From IMG/VR virus record IMGVR_UViG_3300025853_000587, positions 1 to 25,420 of that record: 25,420 nt of DNA; one strand, given 5' to 3'. How positions within the stretch are numbered: position 1 is the stretch's first letter; each line of letters starts with the position of its first letter. This DNA is from a virus. Position numbers and translations under genes: made by a program. Shown one piece after another: positions 3,401-25,420 of the stretch. A model generated the notes under the pieces. The model did not search any database and had not been told where the DNA came from. It was given only the letters and a program-made list of their open reading frames with translations.

Positions 3401-4013
3401 TTTCAGCTATTGGGTCTTTACCCTCACTAATCTCAGTAAGCGCCTCAGTAAGCGTAATACTGCCATCTACAACTGCTGCATCTAGAGCGCCTATTTTGGC
3501 AAGGTTTTGAGCAGTAAGATTTTTACCTTGCATTAATTGTTTTGCGCGCGCAATTTGTCTAACGCTGCCTTGAAAGCCTAAAGCGTTAAGCCCTTTGCCA
3601 AGATGCAAAGAAGCAGCAACACCGCCGTAAGGAATAGCAATAGATGCATGAAGGCTAGGATCGGTAAGAAATAAATTAAGACCAGTAGAGCGATTTAATA
3701 CGCTATAATTATCTCTACGCTTTTGTATAAACTCTAGCGCAGAAATAAAGTTATCTTGAGAACCAATTCCAAACAAACGAAGATAACGGGCATCTTCTTC
3801 ATTAAACCCTTGTTTTTCTATTACTGTTTCAACACGATCAATTGACTCTGGATCGTAAGTAGAAATCCTAGAATAGAAATTTAATTGATTTTTTATTGGA
3901 TTAAATATTCTTCCATACTGAGCATTACCTGTTTGCCCTATTGTTGGCACTGTAGACTGCATTGGCTGTCTGCCAATATTAAAAGGTCTTGCCTCTGGAA
4001 CAGTTATCTTCAT
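441..4013 (-). CDS. Large internal virion protein, gp16-like (1190 aa)
   Basis: This 1190-residue protein is the last of three consecutive internal-virion-type genes. By size and order it matches T7 gp16, the internal core protein ejected into the host to help form the DNA channel. There are Ala/Gly-rich hydrophobic segments near residues 205-230 and a long charged, probably coiled-coil stretch near 450-570. I do not see the N-terminal lytic transglycosylase that T7 gp16 carries; the N-terminus is extended and polar (starts MKITVPEARPFN). The start codon overlaps the stop of the upstream gene (ATGA). Assignment rests on position and length, not on a catalytic motif, so a generic large structural protein is the fallback. 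Confidence 0.65.
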   Translation of the reverse strand: MKITVPEARPFNIGRQPMQSTVPTIGQTGNAQYGRIFNPIKNQLNFYSRISTYDPESIDRVETVIEKQGFNEEDARYLRLFGIGSQDNFISALEFIQKRRDNYSVLNRSTGLNLFLTDPSLHASIAIPYGGVAASLHLGKGLNALGFQGSVRQIARAKQLMQGKNLTAQNLAKIGALDAAVVDGSITLTEALTEISEGKDPIAEIGDAALYTMGTAAVGGLLGYGIGAALNRPISAQARQATFGRRYKEYLNSVSDEPAKRGEDLSFTGEWFTNSWFMKAIPTPLRVTIQDKLLPDWAKMDMLQLGGDNGMPFAMNQLGKSVGSSAFTESARRQGDWFKALDVINQSYREVSSRNPTAEFFNVPVGEYYERIRRKLGKDSFAPDEWYNHIGRLMVDEVPYDKMTPQEAASVQAARGFFEQYGKELEEVGLINPKDLFEDNYLKNVGRQMELQSVTRSIIEQNKRWMRPQQDRLSTDIEKITNKLKSLQKTATTRGLTNKQVKFKADLEKDLVGKQNLIAQFDDAFDKIQNAKSIDELALLYKELDLTADMRNALQDLAKAMDDTRARINNAMDMIDEMPSVKSPSNYLMRIFNRRKIESDREGLKNILMNWYRENPQIIVKGDDNLFKRQELATDPVSVERRANETIDNILGETDEDAVDAIFTGFGRSGPLVSRRLNIPNHLIKDYIVTDIKEVMIAYTNRVGPRLEYHKRFRDPETGKLMPLEARIDYYRSRLIKDGVNEQTINKFIKNFVAIYDQVVGTTLKRPDAIDTKIADFLRTATSWTFLGGSGLAAIGDTASIFMDHELKSIGMSVLGSMDDISLKLSKRELNLAGEGLEITRGITHLKYMESLTNDVFSKTIPDKLNNAFYIMNGLAPITVAIKTFDGLVRGHTIIDSAIKLGVGKASKFEQEFLARYNITPKLAKQIADSPYEKSQGGLFLPNTEAWTDEAAVKAFRNALSSGVMNRVIMGTPADKPIVMSGVAYIPEHLARMLPFETSVDPRVKGYRRVESGLLALPFTFYSYTMGALSKITANHASGAVRNRLSHIAVAMGLGYMIVNTRTPNWAWKDMDLEDKIMRSFDFSGLAAIYSDAVYRGIAMASEMGFENNFPIQPKFQAPPDKIGALVSLGGAPADWSYEVLSSIGQMLSGDVQDGAKGLIRMTPLIETMATGDVIKDTAKDLTGYLPNRQ

Positions 4014-11686: not shown

Positions 11687-12496
11687 TTAGTTATTATCAA
11701 GGACTTCATAGATACCATCGCTATCAATAACGACAGCACCCATAGACATCATTGATGTGGCAAGGTGTGAGACTTTTTCCGCAATATAGTTTACCTCAGT
11801 TTGAACATCAGCATTTACGCCAAGCCCTACTGAAGATGTATGGTACGAAAAGTTTTTACCACCAGCTACAGCAGACGTTGAAAAGATCTTGAATCCCAAG
11901 AACTCTTTCATTGTCATACCGCCAGCAAACGGCAAGTTCTGAGGGCCAACGTAATCAGAAGAAGCAAACTCGTTAATGTTAAACAAGTCAGCAAAACCAG
12001 AAGGAGACATAGCTAAGTAGCGTTGTCCGTCTTCTGGAACGTCAGCATTCCCAAGAGTTTCAAACAATGACAACAAGTCAGCTTTGCTTACTGCGCTGCC
12101 AGTTGCACCAATCTGAGTGCTGTTAGCACCAGCATCCATTGCTGTGATTAAGATTTCATCAGTCTTACGACCGAGTGCAGCAGCAGCAGATTGTGCTACA
12201 GCTTGACGCTCGTTGATGTTAATCTTTAATTCATCAAGCTTGTCCATATACTCTGAAGCATAGAAGTCAGCCATTGTTACTTCAACATTGGTATGCGCTA
12301 ACTCCATTGGAGTTACGTTGCCATTGCGAGATTTAGTAGTTGCAGTGCCTTTTCCGATTACTTGGAAACGAGCAGTTGAACCTGTGACATTTGTCGTACG
12401 CACAGTGTTCCGTAACTTGGAACCCATACGCTGATACGCCATATGTACTTCAGTTTCAAACTGCTTGATAAAGGCTTGATCAATAGTATTAGCCAT
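11687..12496 (-). CDS. Major capsid protein
   Basis: A 269-residue protein with the character of an HK97-fold capsid subunit. It has an N-terminal helix, a basic and Thr-rich region (QVIGKGTATTKSRNGN), long helix-forming segments near residues 90-120 (INERQAVAQSAAAALGRKTDE), and a C-terminal ILE/VAL-rich beta region. It is shorter than T7 gp10A (about 345). It follows the scaffold and gp13-like genes and precedes the tail tubular genes. The ribosome site AGGA precedes ATG at 12496. The 79-base leader upstream (12497-12575) is one of the few gaps in the late operon and contains a twice-repeated GGATACC, but I see no convincing promoter there. Confidence 0.88.
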   Translation of the reverse strand: MANTIDQAFIKQFETEVHMAYQRMGSKLRNTVRTTNVTGSTARFQVIGKGTATTKSRNGNVTPMELAHTNVEVTMADFYASEYMDKLDELKININERQAVAQSAAAALGRKTDEILITAMDAGANSTQIGATGSAVSKADLLSLFETLGNADVPEDGQRYLAMSPSGFADLFNINEFASSDYVGPQNLPFAGGMTMKEFLGFKIFSTSAVAGGKNFSYHTSSVGLGVNADVQTEVNYIAEKVSHLATSMMSMGAVVIDSDGIYEVLDNN

Positions 12497-14081: not shown

Positions 14082-15609
14082 CTTGCATTCCTTGTTGCTG
14101 TTGAGCCATTTGCTGTTGAGCCATTTGCTGCGCAACCGCAGCTATTTGTCTACGCTGTTCTTCGTCACGAATCAAGCTCTCTGGTACACCAAACTTTTTA
14201 GATAGGAATATAGCAGTCTTTTCTGAGTCAATTAACATTTGCATCATCTCAGGGCCAAAGGCTCCACCAACAAGCTCTAAGAAACGCGCAACACTTGAGA
14301 TATCCTCATTTGCTTGTGCTTGAGCGAGCGGAGATACAGATCGCACTTTAACTTCCCTACCATTTACTGTAGGTACTTCTATGCGGCCCTGCTTCTTTAG
14401 GATGTAAATTACACGTTGAAGTACGGGCTGCACGAGTTCAGCTTGCAATCTCCCAAATGAAGAACCCATTCTCCTAGATAAGTCAGCCATTCTTTCGGCC
14501 ACCTCAGTTGCAGTCGCAGGAGTTTTGTTAGGATCAGCAAGCATATCCATGAACAAAGCCTTGCGAATATTAAGGCGCATATCATTAAGAACAAGCTGCG
14601 CTACATCAAAGCGACCCGCTGCTTGTATAGGCTGCAAGCCAGCAGAACCCATAGCTTTTGGTATAATAGTCCCTGGGACTAAATTAATTGTATCAACATT
14701 AACTACGCCATCATCTTCCATCTGATATATACCAGAGATAGACATCTGAGCATTTTCAAGAATAAGCTCAATGGTTAAGTTTGTAGTTTTAATAGCAGAC
14801 AGAGCATTAAGAATAGGCCCACGACCATACACCTCGCCAGAACACTTAGACCACCTAAAACAAATAAAGGGATTAGATCCGACGCCCTTCATTTGTTTTT
14901 CGTATAGCGTTGTTTTGGTACTCATGCAGAATGCATAGTGATAGTAAGCCTCCTCGTTTCGCTTACTGTAGTCGCGGCATACAAGTTCAAGAACAGTAGT
15001 TTCTCTGTCCTTGCCCATTTGTTGCTCGACCTTTGGATCAAACTTACCATCAGGAAAGAGAATCCTTAGATCATCAAACGGAATCTTCTTACGCTCTCTA
15101 AATACATGGTCAATTTTATCGTCTGGCCCAGTATCAAGTACGACATGTGGAAGGGGTATTGCGGTAAAGTTTACTGGATTAATTGAATCCCCTTCTTCGA
15201 CGCACAAGACACCAGTACCAACAGCCAAGTCCATAAAGGATTCATGAACCTCTTGGCTGAAATTGGAGTTCTGCAATACCTCGAATACATATTCAGTAAC
15301 TTCATCTAGCTCATTATCAATTGCTTCACGCTGATCCTTTGGCACCTCACTGCCAGACACAAGATCAGCCCACCTAGCAAAGTTAGGCACAATGCCAGAC
15401 TGCAATCTGCTAGCAAACTCTTGAACACCAACTACTGCTGTTTCATCAAAGATCTTTTCATCCCTGCGTTGCCCAGCTTCTTCATAATAAAACGACTCAC
15501 GTTGAGGCAGAGCGTATTCATAACACTCCTCAAAGAGAGGAACCCAGTTTTCCCGAAAGGCTTTTGCCTTCTGGTACTTCTTTAGTTTTTGCTCTGCCAA
15601 TGTATTCAT
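14065..15609 (-). CDS. Portal (head-to-tail connector) protein
   Basis: A 514-residue protein, close to T7 gp8 (536), with features of the podophage head-tail connector family: a helical N-terminus (KAKAFRENWVPLFEECYEYALP), a conserved segment FASRLQSGIVPNFARWADL around residues 65-83, and a Gln-rich C-terminal tail. It forms the dodecameric ring through which DNA is packaged and ejected. It lies between the MCFG protein and the scaffold, with its start overlapping the upstream stop (ATGA). The C-terminal tail contains a repeated MAQQQ stretch coded by a 15-bp tandem repeat. Confidence 0.92.
   Translation of the reverse strand: MNTLAEQKLKKYQKAKAFRENWVPLFEECYEYALPQRESFYYEEAGQRRDEKIFDETAVVGVQEFASRLQSGIVPNFARWADLVSGSEVPKDQREAIDNELDEVTEYVFEVLQNSNFSQEVHESFMDLAVGTGVLCVEEGDSINPVNFTAIPLPHVVLDTGPDDKIDHVFRERKKIPFDDLRILFPDGKFDPKVEQQMGKDRETTVLELVCRDYSKRNEEAYYHYAFCMSTKTTLYEKQMKGVGSNPFICFRWSKCSGEVYGRGPILNALSAIKTTNLTIELILENAQMSISGIYQMEDDGVVNVDTINLVPGTIIPKAMGSAGLQPIQAAGRFDVAQLVLNDMRLNIRKALFMDMLADPNKTPATATEVAERMADLSRRMGSSFGRLQAELVQPVLQRVIYILKKQGRIEVPTVNGREVKVRSVSPLAQAQANEDISSVARFLELVGGAFGPEMMQMLIDSEKTAIFLSKKFGVPESLIRDEEQRRQIAAVAQQMAQQQMAQQQQGMQVGDEG
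14095..14130 (-). repeat. 15-bp tandem repeat coding MAQQQ in the portal tail
   Basis: The 15-base unit TTGCTGTTGAGCCAT (plus strand) occurs twice in full, followed by six bases of a third copy. On the coding strand it gives MAQQQ repeats near the portal's C-terminus. The copies are identical, so length variation between relatives would be expected here. Confidence 0.9.
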
Positions 15610-19881: not shown

Positions 19882-19904
19882 TAGTGACGTTACGTAACTA
19901 TACT
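19875..19904 (+). promoter_or_regulatory. Candidate rightward promoter overlapping element copy 1
   Basis: CTGTCA (19875-19880) and TATACT (19899-19904) are separated by 18 bases; they match the bacterial consensus at 4 and 5 of 6 positions. The left arm of the 37-bp element occupies the spacer, so a bound protein would control it. Transcription from here would give a leader of over 500 bases before the first early gene. Confidence 0.35.
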
Positions 19905-19920: not shown

Positions 19921-20038
19921 ACCTGATTATTACAGTTGACAGGGTGGCAATGACCTTTGCTGCGATACCGTAGAACAGCCACCTTAGTCAGTCTCTCCAT
20001 GTCTTTTCTCAGCTCGCGGTAGGGTCATTGCAAGAAGA

Positions 20039-20078
20039 GTTGCATGACACTTATTATCTGTCTGTTGAGTCATGCAAC
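20039..20078. repeat. Perfect 10-bp inverted repeat with 20-base loop
   Basis: GTTGCATGAC (20039-20048) and GTCATGCAAC (20069-20078) are exact inverted copies. In RNA they would form a stable hairpin; in DNA they could be an operator. The TGCATGACAC core recurs in direct orientation at 20196-20205. Confidence 0.85.
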
Positions 20079-20135
20079 AATCGCTTCTGCGGCGTCATTG
20101 CAGTCACAGACCCTGCCTATGATTATCTCACAGCT

Positions 20136-20160
20136 GCCACTTTGCTTTGGCAAAGCTGGC
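20136..20160. repeat. 10-bp hairpin with one bulge
   Basis: GCCACTTTGC pairs with GCAAAG-C-TGGC around a TTTG loop, with a single bulged C at 20156. No U-run follows, so it is not an intrinsic terminator. It overlaps the -35 side of the promoter-like site at 20147-20174. Confidence 0.75.
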
Positions 20161-20174
20161 TTGCTGCTTATAAT
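20147..20174 (+). promoter_or_regulatory. Candidate early promoter (TTGGCA, 16 bp, TATAAT)
   Basis: TTGGCA (20147-20152) matches the -35 consensus at 5 of 6, and TATAAT (20169-20174) is a perfect -10; the spacer is 16 bases. It is the best sigma70-type site in the control region and points at the gene at 20444. The -35 box lies in the 3' arm and loop of a hairpin-forming palindrome. Confidence 0.55.
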
Positions 20175-20297
20175 CACAGGAGGCTCTTGTATGTCTGCAT
20201 GACACCTTATCAGCGATGCATCTCTCCCTCACACACAATCTATGAATTATAACTTCCAGTTGGGCCACCGTATTTCATCTGAGTCAATGATGACATG

Positions 20298-20328
20298 GAC
20301 GCTGCATCAGACAAGCTGACGCTGCATC
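20298..20328. repeat. Direct repeat GACGCTGCATC, two copies 20 bp apart
   Basis: Identical 11-base copies start at 20298 and 20318, about two helical turns apart, so they present the same DNA face. A related GCGATGCATC is at 20213. This looks like an iteron-type protein-binding array just upstream of the first early gene. Confidence 0.75.
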
Positions 20329-20443
20329 CATATCACCAGCAGAGCTGGCGCTTACGCGTCTTTGACACAGTTGAAATCCTTATGGCGTCTAATCTGTATA
20401 CATAGAAGACTGTGTATGAACGATAGATATAGGAGAATATAAC

Positions 20444-21043: not shown

Positions 21044-21069
21044 GTGTGCAGCAGTAAGCTGCATGCAGT
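21044..21069 (+). promoter_or_regulatory. GCTGCA/TGCAGC palindrome, site A
   Basis: Two overlapping structures are seen here: a hairpin GTGTGCAGC-AGTAA-GCTGCATGC (with two G-T pairs) and the perfect 10-bp palindrome CTGCATGCAG (21059-21068). The string AGTAAGCTGC followed by ATGCAGT is shared with the site at 25067-25091. It lies in the 105-base gap between the terminator and the next gene, where a promoter is expected. Confidence 0.55.
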
Positions 21070-21103
21070 CATCAGCAAAATCAAAATTAAAAAAGGAAGC
21101 CAA

Positions 21104-21262
21104 ATGTTAAAAACAGTTTGGATTGCATTCGTTGCATTCAGTTCACCAGAAGATTGCGATCAGTTTGTAAAAAAGAATCCGTCACTTGTTCATGGTGAAA
21201 TACAATGTGTCATTCATAAACATGAGGTGCCAGCAATAAAACCAAAACAAAAACCAAAGTGA
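21104..21262 (+). CDS. Small hypothetical protein (52 aa)
   Basis: I place the start at ATG 21104, behind AAGGA. A longer in-frame version from 21002 would begin inside the terminator region and has no ribosome site. The 52-residue product begins MLKTVWIAFVAFSSPEDCDQF: a hydrophobic N-terminal stretch followed by a polar part with two cysteines and a Lys/Pro-rich tail (KPKQKPK). The hydrophobic stretch is too short for a clear membrane segment. I do not know a function. Confidence 0.6.
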   Translation: MLKTVWIAFVAFSSPEDCDQFVKKNPSLVHGEIQCVIHKHEVPAIKPKQKPK

Positions 21263-21295
21263 CGTAACGTAACTAATGACAGTAACTATTGTCAC
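21259..21295. promoter_or_regulatory. 37-bp bipartite element, copy 2
   Basis: GTGACGTAACGTAACTA (21259-21275) matches copy 1 at 16 of 17 positions, and the element ends with GTCAC at exactly the same distance, so both copies span 37 bases. GTAACTA is repeated inside this copy (21269, 21282). The first four bases overlap the stop codon of the upstream gene; the rest is intergenic, ahead of the gene at 21332. Confidence 0.65.
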
Positions 21296-21308
21296 TGCAA
21301 TACTGCAG
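21295..21308. promoter_or_regulatory. CTGC-N6-GCAG palindrome, site D
   Basis: CTGC (21295-21298) and GCAG (21305-21308) are six bases apart and abut the end of the 37-bp element. It lies 23 bases before the ATG at 21332. On its own it is a weak signal; it is listed because similar sites precede other early genes. Confidence 0.35.
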
Positions 21309-21331
21309 GGCATAACCCACGGAGAACTAAC

Positions 21332-21529
21332 ATGTATACAACTTTATCACTGCACGACATCACTAACATCACAATAGATGAGCGTGTAAGCAAAACCTAT
21401 GTAACTAGAAAACTAACAATGACAGATAAAAATGGTGACCAAGCTTTTGTTACCCTTTTTGCAGATGATCGTAATGCATTAACATTTAATTATAATCCAA
21501 TAGAAGACATAAGGGAGAACGCAGCATGA
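21332..21529 (+). CDS. Small hypothetical protein (65 aa)
   Basis: A 65-residue protein, MYTTLSLHDITNITIDERV..., with beta-strand-like alternation and a segment KNGDQAFVTLFADDRNAL. GGAG lies seven bases before the ATG. Proteins starting with SLHDI and carrying an ITLFADD-like strand are common small hypotheticals in phages; the function is unknown. The stop overlaps the next gene's ATG (ATGA), so it is coupled to the DUF932 gene. Confidence 0.68.
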   Translation: MYTTLSLHDITNITIDERVSKTYVTRKLTMTDKNGDQAFVTLFADDRNALTFNYNPIEDIRENAA

Positions 21530-22359
21530 AACATTTCTCAATGAACGACTTCAACTTTCCCGTTGAACAACAACCAATCCATGACCAGCTTGGCAATATC
21601 ATTGCTGGTCATCAAGCTGTTGTGCGTACCGACACCGATCAAGTGTTGGGCGTACACGGGTCACGCTACAAGATTGTATCACACGATGATGTAGTCAACT
21701 CAGTTCTCGACGGAGTAAAGTCAGCAGATCTATCAGACGATTATGAAGTCAGCGTCGATGTGCTTGAAGACGGTCGCAAGCTAAGAGGTGAGATACTATT
21801 TAATAACATTGTTATTGAACCAGATGTCGGTGACTACGTTAAGTTCCGAGTAAACTTCTTTAATAGCTACGATGCGTCTTGGTCTTTTTCTCAGGTAGCA
21901 GATGCTTATAGATTATGGTGTAAAAATGGTTGCACTACACCAGACGCAGTGGCGCGCAGTAGATACAAGCACACTGCATCGATCAACGTCGAAGGCGCAG
22001 CAGCCAAAGTAATCAATGGCCTTGAGCACTTTCAATCACGCAAAGATGTGTGGCAAAGCTGGATGCAAACTAAGCTAGAGCAACCACAGATCGAAAACTT
22101 CTTTAAGAAGACTGTCTGCAAAGCATTCACACGTCAGCAGTCAATCACCAAGACCAACGAAAAGCAACTAGAAAACTTGCTAAGTATTTGGAGTGACGAG
22201 CGCAGCAGCCTCGGCTCCAATAAGTGGGCACTATACAACTGCCTTACTTACTGGGCTACGCACACACAAGATCTGCGTAAGCCTGAGATCGCTAAGTACA
22301 ATCGTGAAATACAGATTGCTAGCGCAATGAAGTCAAAACAATGGAACGATATGGTATAA
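21526..22359 (+). CDS. DUF932 family phage/plasmid protein
   Basis: A 277-residue protein of the DUF932 family, which occurs in phages and plasmids and has no settled biochemical function. The family pattern is visible. VLGVHGSRYKIVSHDDVV (near residues 39-56) lies in the N-terminal half. The core VKFRVNFFNSYDASWSFSQ is followed by YRLWCKNGCT, where Asn, Ser-Tyr-Asp and Cys-x-Asn-Gly are the typical conserved residues. The C-terminal third is helical and charged. It is translationally coupled to the upstream small gene and followed by the DGQ-motif gene after only 11 bases. Confidence 0.8.
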   Translation: MKHFSMNDFNFPVEQQPIHDQLGNIIAGHQAVVRTDTDQVLGVHGSRYKIVSHDDVVNSVLDGVKSADLSDDYEVSVDVLEDGRKLRGEILFNNIVIEPDVGDYVKFRVNFFNSYDASWSFSQVADAYRLWCKNGCTTPDAVARSRYKHTASINVEGAAAKVINGLEHFQSRKDVWQSWMQTKLEQPQIENFFKKTVCKAFTRQQSITKTNEKQLENLLSIWSDERSSLGSNKWALYNCLTYWATHTQDLRKPEIAKYNREIQIASAMKSKQWNDMV

Positions 22360-22370
22360 GGAGAATCACC

Positions 22371-23192
22371 ATGCATATCTACAAAAGACCAAACATAAAC
22401 TATGAACTAATCTTAATTACGCCAGACAAAGCAAGTAAATTGCTAGAAATAAACAGCAAGAATCGGCGTATTAATAAAACTAAAGTTGCTCAATATTCAA
22501 GAGATTTAATAAACGGTGACTTTGAATACAACGGTCATACAATATGTACATCTAATACAAACATATTGTTAGACGGTCAGCAAAGATTAACTGCTTGTGT
22601 TGAAACTGGCATTTCCTTTTGGACAATTATTGTTGGAGGATTAGCTGAGCAATGTATGGTTACTATAGATAGCGGCAGAACTAGATCATATTCTGATAGG
22701 CTTAAGATAAGAGGCTTTGAAAATTACACTGGACTTGCTGCAACCATTACTCACTTATGTTTAATAGCAACGAAACATCCAAAGCATTCTGGATTCACAG
22801 CATCACAAATGGATGGTGTTCTAGAGAAACATGGAGCAGTAATAGATAGCGTTAAATATGCTGCGGCAACTTTCACAAGATGTGACCCATTGTTAGGCGC
22901 AATACATTACATCGCAAAGCAAACAGGTTACGACAGTCAAGCTGATGAGTTTATTAAAACTTGGAAAGATGGACAGATAAATTATGAAGATGATCCTGTT
23001 CATTACATCAGAGAACTAATTAGTCGAGATGCTCTTCGCCAAAAGAAGATGACTACAATTCATAAGATGCGCTTAATAATGTTGTCTTGGAATAAGTTTA
23101 AAAGTTACGACACCCTTAAGAGCGCAAAGATTAGCAAGCATGCATATGAAATGGATGGTTGGGATTTAAATACATGTAACTTAATTTTGTAG
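22371..23192 (+). CDS. ParB/Srx-like protein with DGQQRL motif
   Basis: The start is ATG 22371 (AAGGAG upstream), giving 273 residues; an earlier in-frame ATG at 22341 lies inside the DUF932 gene. The N-terminal domain shows NRRINKTKVAQYSRDLINGDF (read as residues 31-38 and 39-51), then LLDGQQRLTACV with D68-G-Q-Q-R-L73, then IDSGRTRS (99-106). This arrangement is the ParB/Srx-like fold of phage proteins often annotated ParB-like nuclease, and DGQ(H/Q)R is also the signature motif of DndB- and DUF262-type modification or restriction proteins. The C-terminal half is helical without a recognisable domain. Whether it cuts, modifies or only binds DNA cannot be told. Confidence 0.72.
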   Translation: MHIYKRPNINYELILITPDKASKLLEINSKNRRINKTKVAQYSRDLINGDFEYNGHTICTSNTNILLDGQQRLTACVETGISFWTIIVGGLAEQCMVTIDSGRTRSYSDRLKIRGFENYTGLAATITHLCLIATKHPKHSGFTASQMDGVLEKHGAVIDSVKYAAATFTRCDPLLGAIHYIAKQTGYDSQADEFIKTWKDGQINYEDDPVHYIRELISRDALRQKKMTTIHKMRLIMLSWNKFKSYDTLKSAKISKHAYEMDGWDLNTCNLIL

Positions 23193-23200
23193 AGGACAGC

Positions 23201-23434
23201 ATGGTACACGGAGAAGTATACAAAAAGAAAAGCTCTTGGTGGTATAGCAAGCAATCAGATAATAGCGATTTGATTTTATCAACTAAACATAGAACGCAAG
23301 GAGATGCTTGGAAAGCTGCTTCTGTAGATTTGAAAGAAGGTCGAATCAATAAGCTTTATGTTTATCACGGAACTGGTTCGCTTAAAGAGATAATGTCGTA
23401 TGACTTAAACTACTCATGGGAGACAGTAAAATGA
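23201..23434 (+). CDS. Small hypothetical protein (77 aa)
   Basis: A 77-residue protein starting MVHGEVYKKKSSWWYSKQSD, with AGGA just before the ATG. It is rich in Lys, Ser, Tyr and Trp with a strand-like pattern (INKLYVYHGTGSLKEIMSYD). There is no recognisable domain. It overlaps the next gene by four bases (ATGA) and follows the DGQ gene by eight. Confidence 0.68.
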   Translation: MVHGEVYKKKSSWWYSKQSDNSDLILSTKHRTQGDAWKAASVDLKEGRINKLYVYHGTGSLKEIMSYDLNYSWETVK

Positions 23435-23634
23435 GAATGAGTAAACAACATTATGAATTTATTGCAGACACGATTGGGCCAATGGTAGGTTGGCCCTCTC
23501 ATCTACATTCAATAGCTGATGAGCTAGAGAAGACTAACCCACGTTTTAATCGTGAGAAGTTTTTACAACGTGCAACTAAAGCTTGGGAGGACAACCATGA
23601 CATACCAAATGTTGATGACCACATCCCTTATTGA
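23431..23634 (+). CDS. Small helical hypothetical protein (67 aa)
   Basis: The start at ATG 23431 is chosen because GGAG lies eight bases upstream and it makes an ATGA overlap; an upstream ATG at 23416 has no ribosome site. The 67-residue product MRMSKQHYEFIADTIG... contains ADELEKTNPRFNREKFLQRA. This TNPRF.RE+F pattern is very common among small phage proteins of unknown function. It overlaps the zinc-finger gene by 38 bases. Confidence 0.7.
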   Translation: MRMSKQHYEFIADTIGPMVGWPSHLHSIADELEKTNPRFNREKFLQRATKAWEDNHDIPNVDDHIPY

Positions 23635-23800
23635 ATGCCCAGAGTGCTACGGTCATGGCACTCTGACTTACACTAGATTTATTAGGCAAGGTTTCGATGT
23701 CGATGTAGGCTATGAAGAAGAATACAAAGACACTTGCTTTAATTGCAATGGTGACTGCGAGATTGAGATTGAACCAGAAGATCTTGACAACGATGAATGA
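23597..23800 (+). CDS. DnaJ-like zinc-finger small protein (67 aa)
   Basis: The start is ATG 23597 with GGGAGG six bases upstream. The 67-residue product has two zinc-knuckle halves: CPECYGHG near residue 14 and CFNCNGDC near residue 48, spaced like one DnaJ-type CxxCxGxG pair, then a very acidic tail (EIEPEDLDNDE). Small phage proteins of this type are frequent in replication modules; their partners are unknown. Because of the 38-base overlap it is probably coupled to the previous gene. Confidence 0.72.
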   Translation: MTYQMLMTTSLIECPECYGHGTLTYTRFIRQGFDVDVGYEEEYKDTCFNCNGDCEIEIEPEDLDNDE

Positions 23801-23814
23801 AGTGCTGCACTAAT
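23784..23814 (+). promoter_or_regulatory. Candidate promoter for the Cro/CI-like gene, placing +1 at its ATG
   Basis: A perfect TTGACA (23784-23789) lies in the end of the zinc-finger gene, and ACTAAT (23809-23814; 4 of 6) follows after 19 bases. Seven bases further on is the ATG at 23820, so the transcript would start at or next to the start codon. The palindrome at 23802-23821 covers the -10 region. Confidence 0.4.
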
Positions 23815-23821
23815 GCAGCAT
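23802..23821. promoter_or_regulatory. TGCTGCA-CTAA-TGCAGCA palindrome, site B
   Basis: This perfect 7-bp inverted repeat fills the whole 19-base space between the zinc-finger stop and the Cro/CI-like ATG and shares bases with that ATG. It leaves no room for a ribosome site. It fits an operator for autoregulation, or an RNA hairpin over the start codon. Confidence 0.65.
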
Positions 23822-24083
23822 GAAATCATATCTCAAATATCTACAAGACAAAGCAGAGGGGTGCGATATCCCTTTGCTTAAAGCATTCAAGCAAGCTGAT
23901 GTACCAACATCAACTTACTACCGTACAATTAACTTAGTGTCTGAGCTTAGATATGAAACAGCAAGTAAAGTTTCAAATGCTATTGAGTATCTACACAGGG
24001 CTAATGAAATGAGAGAACACGCAAAGAAAGTAGGGCCATCAAAGCGCAAAAACATTTCAATTAGATCTAAGTTTAAGGCTTGA
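23820..24083 (+). CDS. Cro/CI-like helix-turn-helix DNA-binding protein (87 aa)
   Basis: An 87-residue protein MKSYLKYLQDKAEG... with a helix-turn-helix around residues 19-58: LLKAFKQADVPTSTYYR followed by LVSELRYETASKVSNAIEYL. The TYYR recognition-helix region and the TA.KV..AI helix are those of lambda-repressor-like small regulators. A Lys/Arg-rich tail (KKVGPSKRKN...) may add non-specific DNA binding. There is no Shine-Dalgarno; the ATG abuts a perfect palindrome and a possible promoter, suggesting a leaderless, self-controlled mRNA. The stop overlaps the next gene's TTG start. Confidence 0.7.
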   Translation: MKSYLKYLQDKAEGCDIPLLKAFKQADVPTSTYYRTINLVSELRYETASKVSNAIEYLHRANEMREHAKKVGPSKRKNISIRSKFKA

Positions 24084-24388
24084 AAAAAGCACAAGCTATT
24101 AACTGCATTGCTTGCGAAACAAAAACAACTTGGTTCGTTGCAATACTTAAAAACAATAGCGGCGGTACATACGAGAAACATTGGTACGTCTGCCTTCATT
24201 GCTATGAGGAGGACAAGTGGCAAATCGTAACAAGAACAAAGGAACTTACCACGAAAAATGGTTCGTCGACTGGCTTACGAAAGCGGGTATCAAAGCCAAG
24301 AGGCAACCCCTCTCAGGCAGTTTGGGAGGAGAGTATAGCGGAGACATCAAGCTTGAACTCTTCGGTCAAGAACTGGTGGGAGAAGTAA
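24080..24388 (+). CDS. Zinc-ribbon protein with long overlap into the nuclease gene
   Basis: From TTG 24080 (TTGA overlap with the upstream stop) the frame encodes 102 residues. The first half looks real: CIAC near residue 10 and CLHC near residue 38 with WFVAILKN and EKHWYV strands between, a four-cysteine zinc ribbon. After the second pair the frame continues for over 50 residues of Ser/Thr/Lys-rich, low-information sequence that overlaps the nuclease gene by 172 bases. Either this tail is genuine, or a recent frame change removed the original stop. The ribosome site is weak, so coupling to the upstream gene is likely. Confidence 0.55.
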   Translation: MKKAQAINCIACETKTTWFVAILKNNSGGTYEKHWYVCLHCYEEDKWQIVTRTKELTTKNGSSTGLRKRVSKPRGNPSQAVWEESIAETSSLNSSVKNWWEK

Positions 24389-24555
24389 AGTATAGGGACA
24401 AGTCTAACTTCCCCAGCCCATATACAGTATTAGATAAGCGAGACATTGCTTTCTATAAAAGACGGACAGGCAGTCCGCAAACTCTAGTCATAATGACTGG
24501 CGAACAATTCCTTACATTCATGGAGAACGCAAATGCAGAAAGAAATAACACCTGA
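24217..24555 (+). CDS. PD-(D/E)XK nuclease, Holliday-junction-resolvase-like
   Basis: GTG 24217 with a perfect AGGAGG four bases upstream gives 112 residues. The Hjc-like arrangement is visible: Glu13 in GTYHEKWF, RQPLSGSLGGEYSGD ending in Asp43, then Glu56-x-Lys58 in GEVKYR. In this superfamily these residues bind the metal and cut DNA. A resolvase or recombination role fits the YqaJ exonuclease gene nearby, but a restriction or repair endonuclease is also possible. It overlaps the zinc-ribbon frame upstream and the winged-helix gene downstream (23 bases). Confidence 0.72.
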   Translation: MANRNKNKGTYHEKWFVDWLTKAGIKAKRQPLSGSLGGEYSGDIKLELFGQELVGEVKYRDKSNFPSPYTVLDKRDIAFYKRRTGSPQTLVIMTGEQFLTFMENANAERNNT

Positions 24556-24826
24556 GTTTGACGGAGATGATTACGTTTCTAGTCGAGACAAACCAAGACT
24601 AACACAGCAAATACATCAGGTAAGAATGTATATGGAAAACAATGATTGGTTATCTGTAAAACAAATTTCAGACGATCTTAATTTTCCAGAGCCAAGTGTG
24701 TCTGCGCAAATAAGAAATCTAAGAAAAGAAAAATTTGGCTATAGAATTGTAGAGCGCCGCTATCAAGGCAACGGTCTTTATGAATTTAAACTAATACCAA
24801 AGGACAATAATAATGAAGAAACCTAA
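24533..24826 (+). CDS. Winged-helix DNA-binding protein (97 aa)
   Basis: A 97-residue protein with GGAG seven bases before ATG. Residues 24-90 read as a winged helix: TQQIHQVRMYMEN, then LSVKQISDDLNFPEPSVSAQ (helix-turn-helix), IRNLRKEKFGY and the wing VERRYQGNGLYEFKL. Small proteins of this kind (PE.SVSA.+R.LRK..FG) are common in phage recombination modules, and their role is not established. It overlaps genes on both sides. Confidence 0.72.
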   Translation: MQKEITPEFDGDDYVSSRDKPRLTQQIHQVRMYMENNDWLSVKQISDDLNFPEPSVSAQIRNLRKEKFGYRIVERRYQGNGLYEFKLIPKDNNNEET

Positions 24827-25070
24827 ATCAATAGGCACTGCTGTAGCTAGCAGCGTGTGGGATGCACACATTACCAAAGCCACAAGCTCACCTCACTATG
24901 CCAAGGAGTACAAAAAATATTCTTATGTACTAGATGAGTATGAAATAATAGCCAAACGCATTAAGAACGGCGAACCTGTTGGCGAGTCATATCTTAAAGG
25001 TGAACAGAAGAAAAAACTTCTTGAGCTTACTGACTTACATCACGCTGACTTCAAGAAATACCTTGAGTAA
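24813..25070 (+). CDS. Hypothetical helical protein (85 aa)
   Basis: An 85-residue, Lys-rich protein starting MKKPKSIGTAVASSVWDAHI. AGGA lies eight bases before the ATG at 24813, which overlaps the previous gene by 14 bases. The sequence is mostly helical (YAKEYKKYSYVLDEYEIIAK) with no recognisable motif. It lies directly before the YqaJ gene, separated by a 47-base gap with a palindrome and a promoter-like -10 box. Confidence 0.68.
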   Translation: MKKPKSIGTAVASSVWDAHITKATSSPHYAKEYKKYSYVLDEYEIIAKRIKNGEPVGESYLKGEQKKKLLELTDLHHADFKKYLE

Positions 25071-25091
25071 GCTGCGTATATGCAGTAAGCT
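25067..25091. promoter_or_regulatory. AGTAAGCTGC...ATGCAGT palindrome, site C
   Basis: CTGCG-TATA-TGCAG (25072-25085) is a 5-bp stem with one G-T pair, flanked by a GTAAGCT direct repeat (25067 and 25085). AGTAAGCTGC and ATGCAGT are shared with site A, here separated by four extra bases. It lies right after the upstream stop codon. Confidence 0.55.
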
Positions 25092-25097
25092 AACCTA

Positions 25098-25103
25098 TAT
25101 AAT
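25098..25103 (+). promoter_or_regulatory. Perfect -10 box before the YqaJ gene
   Basis: TATAAT lies 12 bases after site C and 14 before the ATG at 25118. No -35 match is present at 16-18 bases; the palindrome occupies that place. This pattern would fit an activator-dependent promoter. Confidence 0.4.
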
Positions 25104-25117
25104 AAAAGGAGAACTTA

Positions 25118-25420
25118 ATGAACCGCAAAGGTTTCATAGGCGGCAGCGACTGCGTAAAAATCATGCAAGGTAACTGGCTTGAGCTATGGCAGATCAAGAC
25201 TGGTCGCATAGATTCAGACGACTTGTCTCGCAATATTGCAGTACAACTTGGTAGCTGGACTGAAGACTTCAATCTTAAATGGTTTGAGCAGGAGCATGAT
25301 TGCGTATTGTCTGGACATCAAGAAGAGCTAGAAGATATGATTGGTAATGTGCCAGCTAAAGGTATGATCGATGCTCGCTGGGGATCTCGCATTGTCGAAG
25401 CCAAGCACACCAATCCATAC
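25118..25420 (+). CDS. YqaJ/lambda-exonuclease family recombinase, N-terminal part (runs off right edge)
   Basis: The first 101 residues of a 5'-3' exonuclease used with an annealing protein in phage recombination. The family start FIGGSD (residues 6-11) is clear, and LGSWTED (44-50) supplies the conserved Glu49. Asp85 (GMIDAR) and Glu94-x-Lys96 (VEAKHT) match the metal-binding residues of lambda exonuclease. AAGGAG lies just upstream of the ATG. The frame is open to the window edge. It suggests a single-strand annealing protein or DNA replication genes further right. Confidence 0.88.
   Translation, partial: MNRKGFIGGSDCVKIMQGNWLELWQIKTGRIDSDDLSRNIAVQLGSWTEDFNLKWFEQEHDCVLSGHQEELEDMIGNVPAKGMIDARWGSRIVEAKHTNPY

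Follow-up and report, generated by a model that had tools for sequence, protein, structure and literature searches.

The window analysed here is a stretch of 25,420 nucleotides (nt) of phage DNA, positions 1 to 25,420 of the IMG/VR virus record IMGVR_UViG_3300025853_000587, in which the open reading frame (ORF) map places structural genes mostly leftward and an early region rightward. A megablast search of the phage collection gave no match to the window, whose terminase shares 67% identity with the one in Pelagibacter phage EXVC031P Hodr. The early region of the window encodes an 87-residue protein, predicted to be a lambda-repressor-like helix-turn-helix (HTH) regulator, and three palindromes, designated D, B and C, precede respectively the unit containing a DUF932 gene, the regulator gene itself and a YqaJ-type recombinase gene (Table 1). 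Based on the sequence comparisons presented here, we propose with high confidence that these three palindromes are operators, and that they most likely belong to the adjacent regulator. A preliminary description of the window had listed four related palindromes; D, B and C do stand in the gaps assigned to them and are conserved, whereas the fourth, site A, exists as a palindrome with a two-base centre but falls outside the family.

Table 1. Features of the early region, in window coordinates
Feature	Position	Strand	Basis
Site A, CTGCATGCAG; judged not an operator	21059..21068		Palindrome not kept
-35-like hexamer TTGTCA adjoining operator D; inferred, with weaker conservation than at C	21289..21294	+	Sequence
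Putative operator D, CTGCAATACTGCAG	21295..21308		Motif and conservation
-10-like hexamer CATAAC after operator D; inferred	21311..21316	+	Sequence
Small ORF, first gene downstream of operator D	21332..21529	+	ORF call
DUF932 gene, in the unit after operator D	21526..22359	+	ORF and family match
phrog_5931 gene, in the unit after operator D	22371..23192	+	PHROG match
-35 hexamer TTGACA of the regulator promoter, 30 nt before ATG	23784..23789	+	Conserved distance
Putative operator B, TGCTGCACTAATGCAGCA; overlaps the expected -10, adjoins the start codon	23803..23820		Motif and conservation
87-residue predicted lambda-repressor-like HTH protein; recognition helix near residues 30-37; mRNA predicted to be leaderless	23820..24083	+	Sequence, structure model
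-35 hexamer TTGAGT of the C promoter	25063..25068	+	Conserved position
Putative operator C, CTGCGTATATGCAG; within the 17-bp spacer	25072..25085		Motif and conservation
-10 hexamer TAAGCT of the C promoter	25086..25091	+	Conserved position
Start of YqaJ-type recombinase gene, downstream of operator C; extends past the window end	25118..25420	+	Match of a relative

A conserved palindrome family before early genes

The CTGC cores begin at 21295 in D, 23805 in B and 25072 in C; in B the symmetry extends to an 18-bp palindrome, real as first described but starting one base further right, at 23803. CTGC-N6-GCAG is found six times in the window against 0.54 expected, a number reached in none of 100 shuffles, and the longer CTGCA-N4-TGCAG twice (D and B; 0.08 expected). 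Half of the six copies are those in the early gaps (D, B and C). The others, at 14128, 14632 and 15690, lie inside structural ORFs.

Eighty relatives were collected via the DUF932 gene; as several of the loci in this study are pieces of the same contigs, numbers of loci are not independent. The set contains CTGC-N6-GCAG 193 times, as against 2 to 69 times for each of the other spacings from 0 to 20, and the larger of the latter counts were traced to a few repeated strings. The great majority of the copies (173 of 193) stand directly before the start of an early gene: 58 adjoin the start of the regulator gene (B), 43 lie in front of the YqaJ-type gene (C) and 72 in front of another early start (D, together with C sites that have an inserted gene). 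The remaining 20 are largely found in repeated strings resembling coding sequence. D, B and C recur at corresponding places across the relatives, while their six central bases vary between phages. The regulator is present in 71 of the 80 loci, and the other nine end less than 1.25 kb after the DUF932 gene. When the outer bases are relaxed to YTGC-N6-GCAR, at least one copy lies between +300 and +3500 in 166 of the 167 loci that extend more than 1700 nt past the start of the regulator, and 29 long records hold 4 to 10 copies each, compared with 0 to 2 for the same pattern reversed. At L012:4148 and similar C sites, operator C and the YqaJ-type gene are separated by an inserted gene, whose product starts with MDDRICMY; operator C can thus lead a different first gene.

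Site A was rejected as a fourth operator, since its CTGC-AT-GCAG is intact in 6 of the 13 distinct contexts of the region, one of which (L031) looks unrelated. Better kept at the same place (window positions 21047-21063) is an inverted repeat, TGCAGC-N4..6-GCTG(C/T)A, seen in 10 of the 13 contexts, which could be an RNA hairpin or reflect a coding constraint.

Promoter geometry and the predicted regulator

The position of operator C relative to its promoter was read from 87 distinct contexts, picked by downstream protein motif and palindrome rather than by promoter hexamers, and restricted to sites directly followed by a YqaJ-type start (the inserted-gene sites of L012, L034 and others were left out). 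In 79 of them TTG begins at precisely -9 relative to the palindrome, the other 8 having TTTA, and in 80 the palindrome is followed directly by TANNNT; the next best offsets give 7 for TTG and 23 for TANNNT. Operator C thus fills a 17-bp spacer. It had been placed in the -35 position in front of a perfect TATAAT; that hexamer is real (25098-25103), but TANNNT is present at its offset in 23 of the 87 contexts and we set it aside as the -10 of site C, which lies instead between the -35 and the -10.

Operator B abuts the start codon of the regulator gene, as had been noted, and also overlaps the regulator's own promoter. All 68 distinct 45-nt regulator upstreams (each context of at least 54 nt being counted once) contain one TTGAC or TTGTC each. 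The -35 hexamer ends 28 nt before the ATG in one of them, 29 nt in 17, 30 nt in 40 and 31 nt in 10, and this distance is unchanged in L167, L115, L133 and L109, where the palindrome is shifted towards the -35. No Shine-Dalgarno (SD) motif (GGAG, GAGG, AGGA or AAGG at -16 to -4) was found in the 68 upstreams; GGAGAAC is present in most of the contexts shown for the genes downstream of D and C. The fixed -35 distance and the lack of an SD motif suggest that transcription starts near the ATG, and the natural reading is that the regulator mRNA is leaderless, with a predicted start at the ATG or a few bases from it. At D, the hexamers TTGTCA and CATAAC are plausible and less conserved than those at C, in a listing of D contexts that includes a few false D sites (e.g. 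L025). A plain consensus scan of the window also lists ATGACA-17-AATACT near D, overlapping site D.

The regulator was found in 206 loci, and at least 548 IMG/VR stretches encode a relative of it, while no cultured phage record matches it at an expectation value (E) of 1. The 87-residue protein hits no Pfam and no PHROG family at E 0.1, a 94-residue relative has a sub-cut-off LacI match (E 0.063), and titles and the beginnings of abstracts in the literature yielded no description of this regulator or operator. An AlphaFold2 model built from 37 sequences (predicted local distance difference test score, pLDDT, 83.2) contains helices at residues 4-14, 19-25, 30-37 and 45-70, the third being the recognition helix of an HTH. 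VIA-align gives Z of about 5-6 over some 57 residues to proteins of the HigA, DdrO, SinR, P22 c2, 434 Cro and C protein kind, including 4.9 for 434 Cro (2cro; 2.7 Å over 56 residues) and 5.0-5.2 for P22 c2, and the Foldseek matches name the same proteins, all with weak E-values. These scores are modest and are not the highest in the list; the model nevertheless has the small lambda-repressor-like HTH fold, and we predict that the protein belongs to this kind.

Recognition helix and operator variants

The recognition helix reads STYYR in 173 of the 206 loci, TTYWR in 31 and neither in 2. We compared it with the outer bases of the palindromes at sites that fit NTGC-N6-GCAN (the B sites of, among others, L051, L105 and L200 do not). 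In the STYYR class, B sites (n = 59) have C..G in 51 cases, T..G in 7 and C..A in 1, and other sites before a ribosome-binding site (n = 155) have C..G in 122, G..A in 17, T..A in 5, T..G in 2 and other pairs in 9. In the TTYWR class, all 10 B sites have T..A, and the 22 other sites before a ribosome-binding site have T..A (13), T..G (8) or G..A (1), with no C..G at all. All three sites are changed to TTGC-N6-GCA(A/G) in L056-L058 of the TTYWR clade, which also retain one CTGCTTCATAGCAG away from them. The TTYWR sequences form a single clade in a tree of 98 distinct regulators computed without the helix columns (Shimodaira-Hasegawa-like approximate likelihood ratio test, 99), and the joint change of helix and operators thus represents one event. 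One TTYWR row of the tree is without a TTGC operator; it is probably L155, whose contig begins 4 nt before the ATG. A second, independent change was rejected: there is one among the 98 regulators, and none emerged from a search of viral contigs with XRE85, an HTH gene described below (80 loci kept; 39 examined, of which 13 had no candidate regulator; then 18 examined).

The palindrome is also seen in distant relatives. A Novosphingobium metagenome-assembled genome contig (L137, GC content 0.61) and five viral contigs (L218, L219, L221, L223 and L224; 0.49-0.60) encode a distant STYYR regulator and have the palindrome both there and at a downstream early gene, the regulator palindrome being one outer base off in L137, L218 and L219. 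The product of the downstream gene in L137 resembles the YqaJ-type protein of the window by eye, not by family search. L223 and L224 carry two CTGC-N6-GCAG palindromes rather than one at the regulator promoter (3753-3788). Among contigs nearer to the window, a tyrosine integrase was found in none of 29 of 24-44 kb, and a serine recombinase in none of the 34 contigs overall, which may however be incomplete; one of the five more distant contigs has a tyrosine integrase. L220 has palindromes as in L219 and its contig holds an integrase, so that the circuit also occurs in a phage that is probably temperate. Two or more HTH_3 matches occur in 10 of the 34 contigs, in a survey that included no search aimed at a CI-type partner.

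Most relatives also carry the HTH_3 gene XRE85, whose start lies within the regulator gene, in the +1 frame, so that the two overlap by up to 128 nt (in L011, 12225-12482 against 12068-12352 for the regulator; PF01381, E 7e-8; below-cut-off YdaS match, E 0.022). In 306 close pairs of 94-residue regulator genes, which are not independent, 71% of substitutions fall on codon position 3 outside the overlap, and inside it 71% fall on regulator position 1, which is position 3 of XRE85; XRE85 is thus under selection. The fetched loci hold another conserved palindrome as well: TGACG-N3-CGTCA is present 162 times, in 91 distinct contexts, against 0-4 times for each of the remaining spacings between 0 and 8. 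It is often found close to operator D and in the stretch upstream of the early genes, although some copies look coding; the two window copies, 19885-19897 and 21260-21272, have one mismatch. No association was found that would make XRE85 its reader, a match at 9 or more of 10 positions being present in 14 of 15 loci without XRE85 and in 89 of 113 with it. A broader picture, which we regard as doubtful, would be an uncultured phage group, mostly without integrase, with a two-repressor switch made of the leaderless Cro-like protein and a partly out-of-frame HTH protein; TGACG-N3-CGTCA would be an input near divergent promoters, and the window would hold a simplified form that has lost the second gene.

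Two further features of the early region may be mentioned. A relative of the YqaJ-type gene (L011:13498-14271) matches PF09588. Some 500 bases between the structural and early genes (window positions 19950-20440) are without a convincing gene and hold several GTCATTGCA- and TGCATGACA-like strings.

Proposed circuit, rival readings and known systems

Taken together, these comparisons make it likely that the 87-residue protein is a leaderless, self-repressing, Cro-like dimeric repressor of predicted fold with three operators. A dimer would bind the 14-bp palindrome (C/T)TGC-N6-GCA(G/A) at three early promoters. At C, a protein seated in the spacer between the -35 and the -10 would block RNA polymerase and turn off the YqaJ recombinase unit; at D, the DUF932 unit would be shut off; and at B, the regulator's own promoter would be covered, giving negative feedback on a transcript that would begin at the ATG, or a few bases from it, and be translated without a leader. 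After infection, the early units would fire, the repressor would accumulate and early transcription would then be lowered. The regulon suggested in the preliminary description is accordingly upheld in substance by conservation, promoter geometry and the joint helix/operator change, with three operators instead of four.

Several observations weigh against this interpretation. B sites of the L070 type are half TTGC, and those of the L051 and L200 types are imperfect. D is TTGC..GCAA in L059, L060, L061 and L067, yet B stays CTGC..GCAG in L059, L060 and L067, as does C in L060 and L067, and the helix of these three loci is STYYR where readable. STFYR regulators are accompanied by an outer A, T or C with no joint pattern, and with one clade and one event, another co-inherited factor might conceivably account for the change. 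No clear palindrome adjoins the regulator in L225-L227. At B the -10, and at D both hexamers, are uncertain, and the consensus scan of the window does not list the promoters at B and C. As for the fold, the top VIA-align rows are HNF-1A chains (Z 7.1, root-mean-square deviation 10), and Foldseek returned no match for the model at E ≤0.001.

The rival that survives best, though unlikely, is that the protein activates the three promoters, or both activates and represses them like the C proteins of restriction-modification systems, which are leaderless regulators activating at low and repressing at high level (PMC4824078). The poor -10 sequences at B and D and the paired palindromes of L223 and L224 would fit such a mode. 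The window, by contrast, has one palindrome per promoter, and at C it lies between hexamers with a normal 17-bp spacer, where a bound protein should exclude polymerase.

It is quite improbable that another HTH protein of the phage (XRE85, an 88-residue XRE protein, a Fis-like protein of 63 residues or a winged-helix protein of 97) reads the palindromes. In favour of XRE85, it is found in 133 of 154 STYYR and 30 of 30 TTYWR loci with enough sequence and belongs to the regulator's own unit. Its helix, GCTxSLIHKWE, is nevertheless alike in both operator classes, its counterpart frame in the window is broken by stops (23977-24235), and it is unmatched in the window clade, including G002-G004, contigs without any HTH_3 match in which all three operators are kept; this argues that XRE85 is not the reader. 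With L011 queries, which distant versions could escape, the 88-, 63- and 97-residue proteins were found in 7 of 92, 46 of 92 and 20 of 154 eligible STYYR loci, and in none of 18, 18 and 30 eligible TTYWR loci.

Phage early promoters can recruit host regulators, and a host transcription factor might use the sites. We consider this very improbable, as the palindromes accompany the regulator and the downstream early gene in loci of 39% to 61% GC, and as Hodr (L082; 29966 of 34238 bases), which is without the regulator, has no YTGC-N6-GCAR, albeit in one genome of lower GC content (0.33). That the palindromes work as RNA hairpins (attenuators or translation blocks) is scarcely credible: B adjoins the start codon and palindromes can also fold as RNA, but C lies between the -35 and the -10 and would thus not be transcribed from its promoter.

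The Cro-like repressor proposed here would define a regulatory circuit that can be tested, in a phage group with a strong presence in IMG/VR and whose regulator is without a matching cultured phage record. The natural change of helix and operators could serve directly as an experiment on specificity, and it is unusual for two HTH genes to overlap out of frame.

Among known systems, HigA-type antitoxins provide the best sequence match in the PDB (2icp, E 0.031) and the top Foldseek row (E 0.43), both weak; unlike them, the regulator has no toxin family over the cut-off beside it, the YdaS match of XRE85 remaining below it. The likeness to the C proteins C.Esp1396I and C.AhdI concerns size, fold (Z 5.5-5.7), a probable operator in the own promoter and a predicted leaderless transcript (PMC4824078). 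The targets here are instead phage early units, and no restriction or methyltransferase family exceeds the cut-off among ten early proteins (GmrSD_N, E 0.035, is far below it). The regulator resembles phage Cro proteins such as 434 Cro and PY54 Cro in being small, in its predicted lambda-repressor-like HTH and in the palindromic putative operators that lie in early promoters. It differs in having three separate promoters with one site each and in that none of the 29 contigs of 24-44 kb contains a tyrosine integrase. As neither a family model nor a cultured homologue matched, we assign it to no known Cro family. Operator B predicts self-repression, whereas PY54 Cro reportedly does not repress itself; the PY54 Cro mRNA is leaderless, and PY54-type operators differ between phages in peripheral base pairs, which set Cro specificity (PMC4488713).

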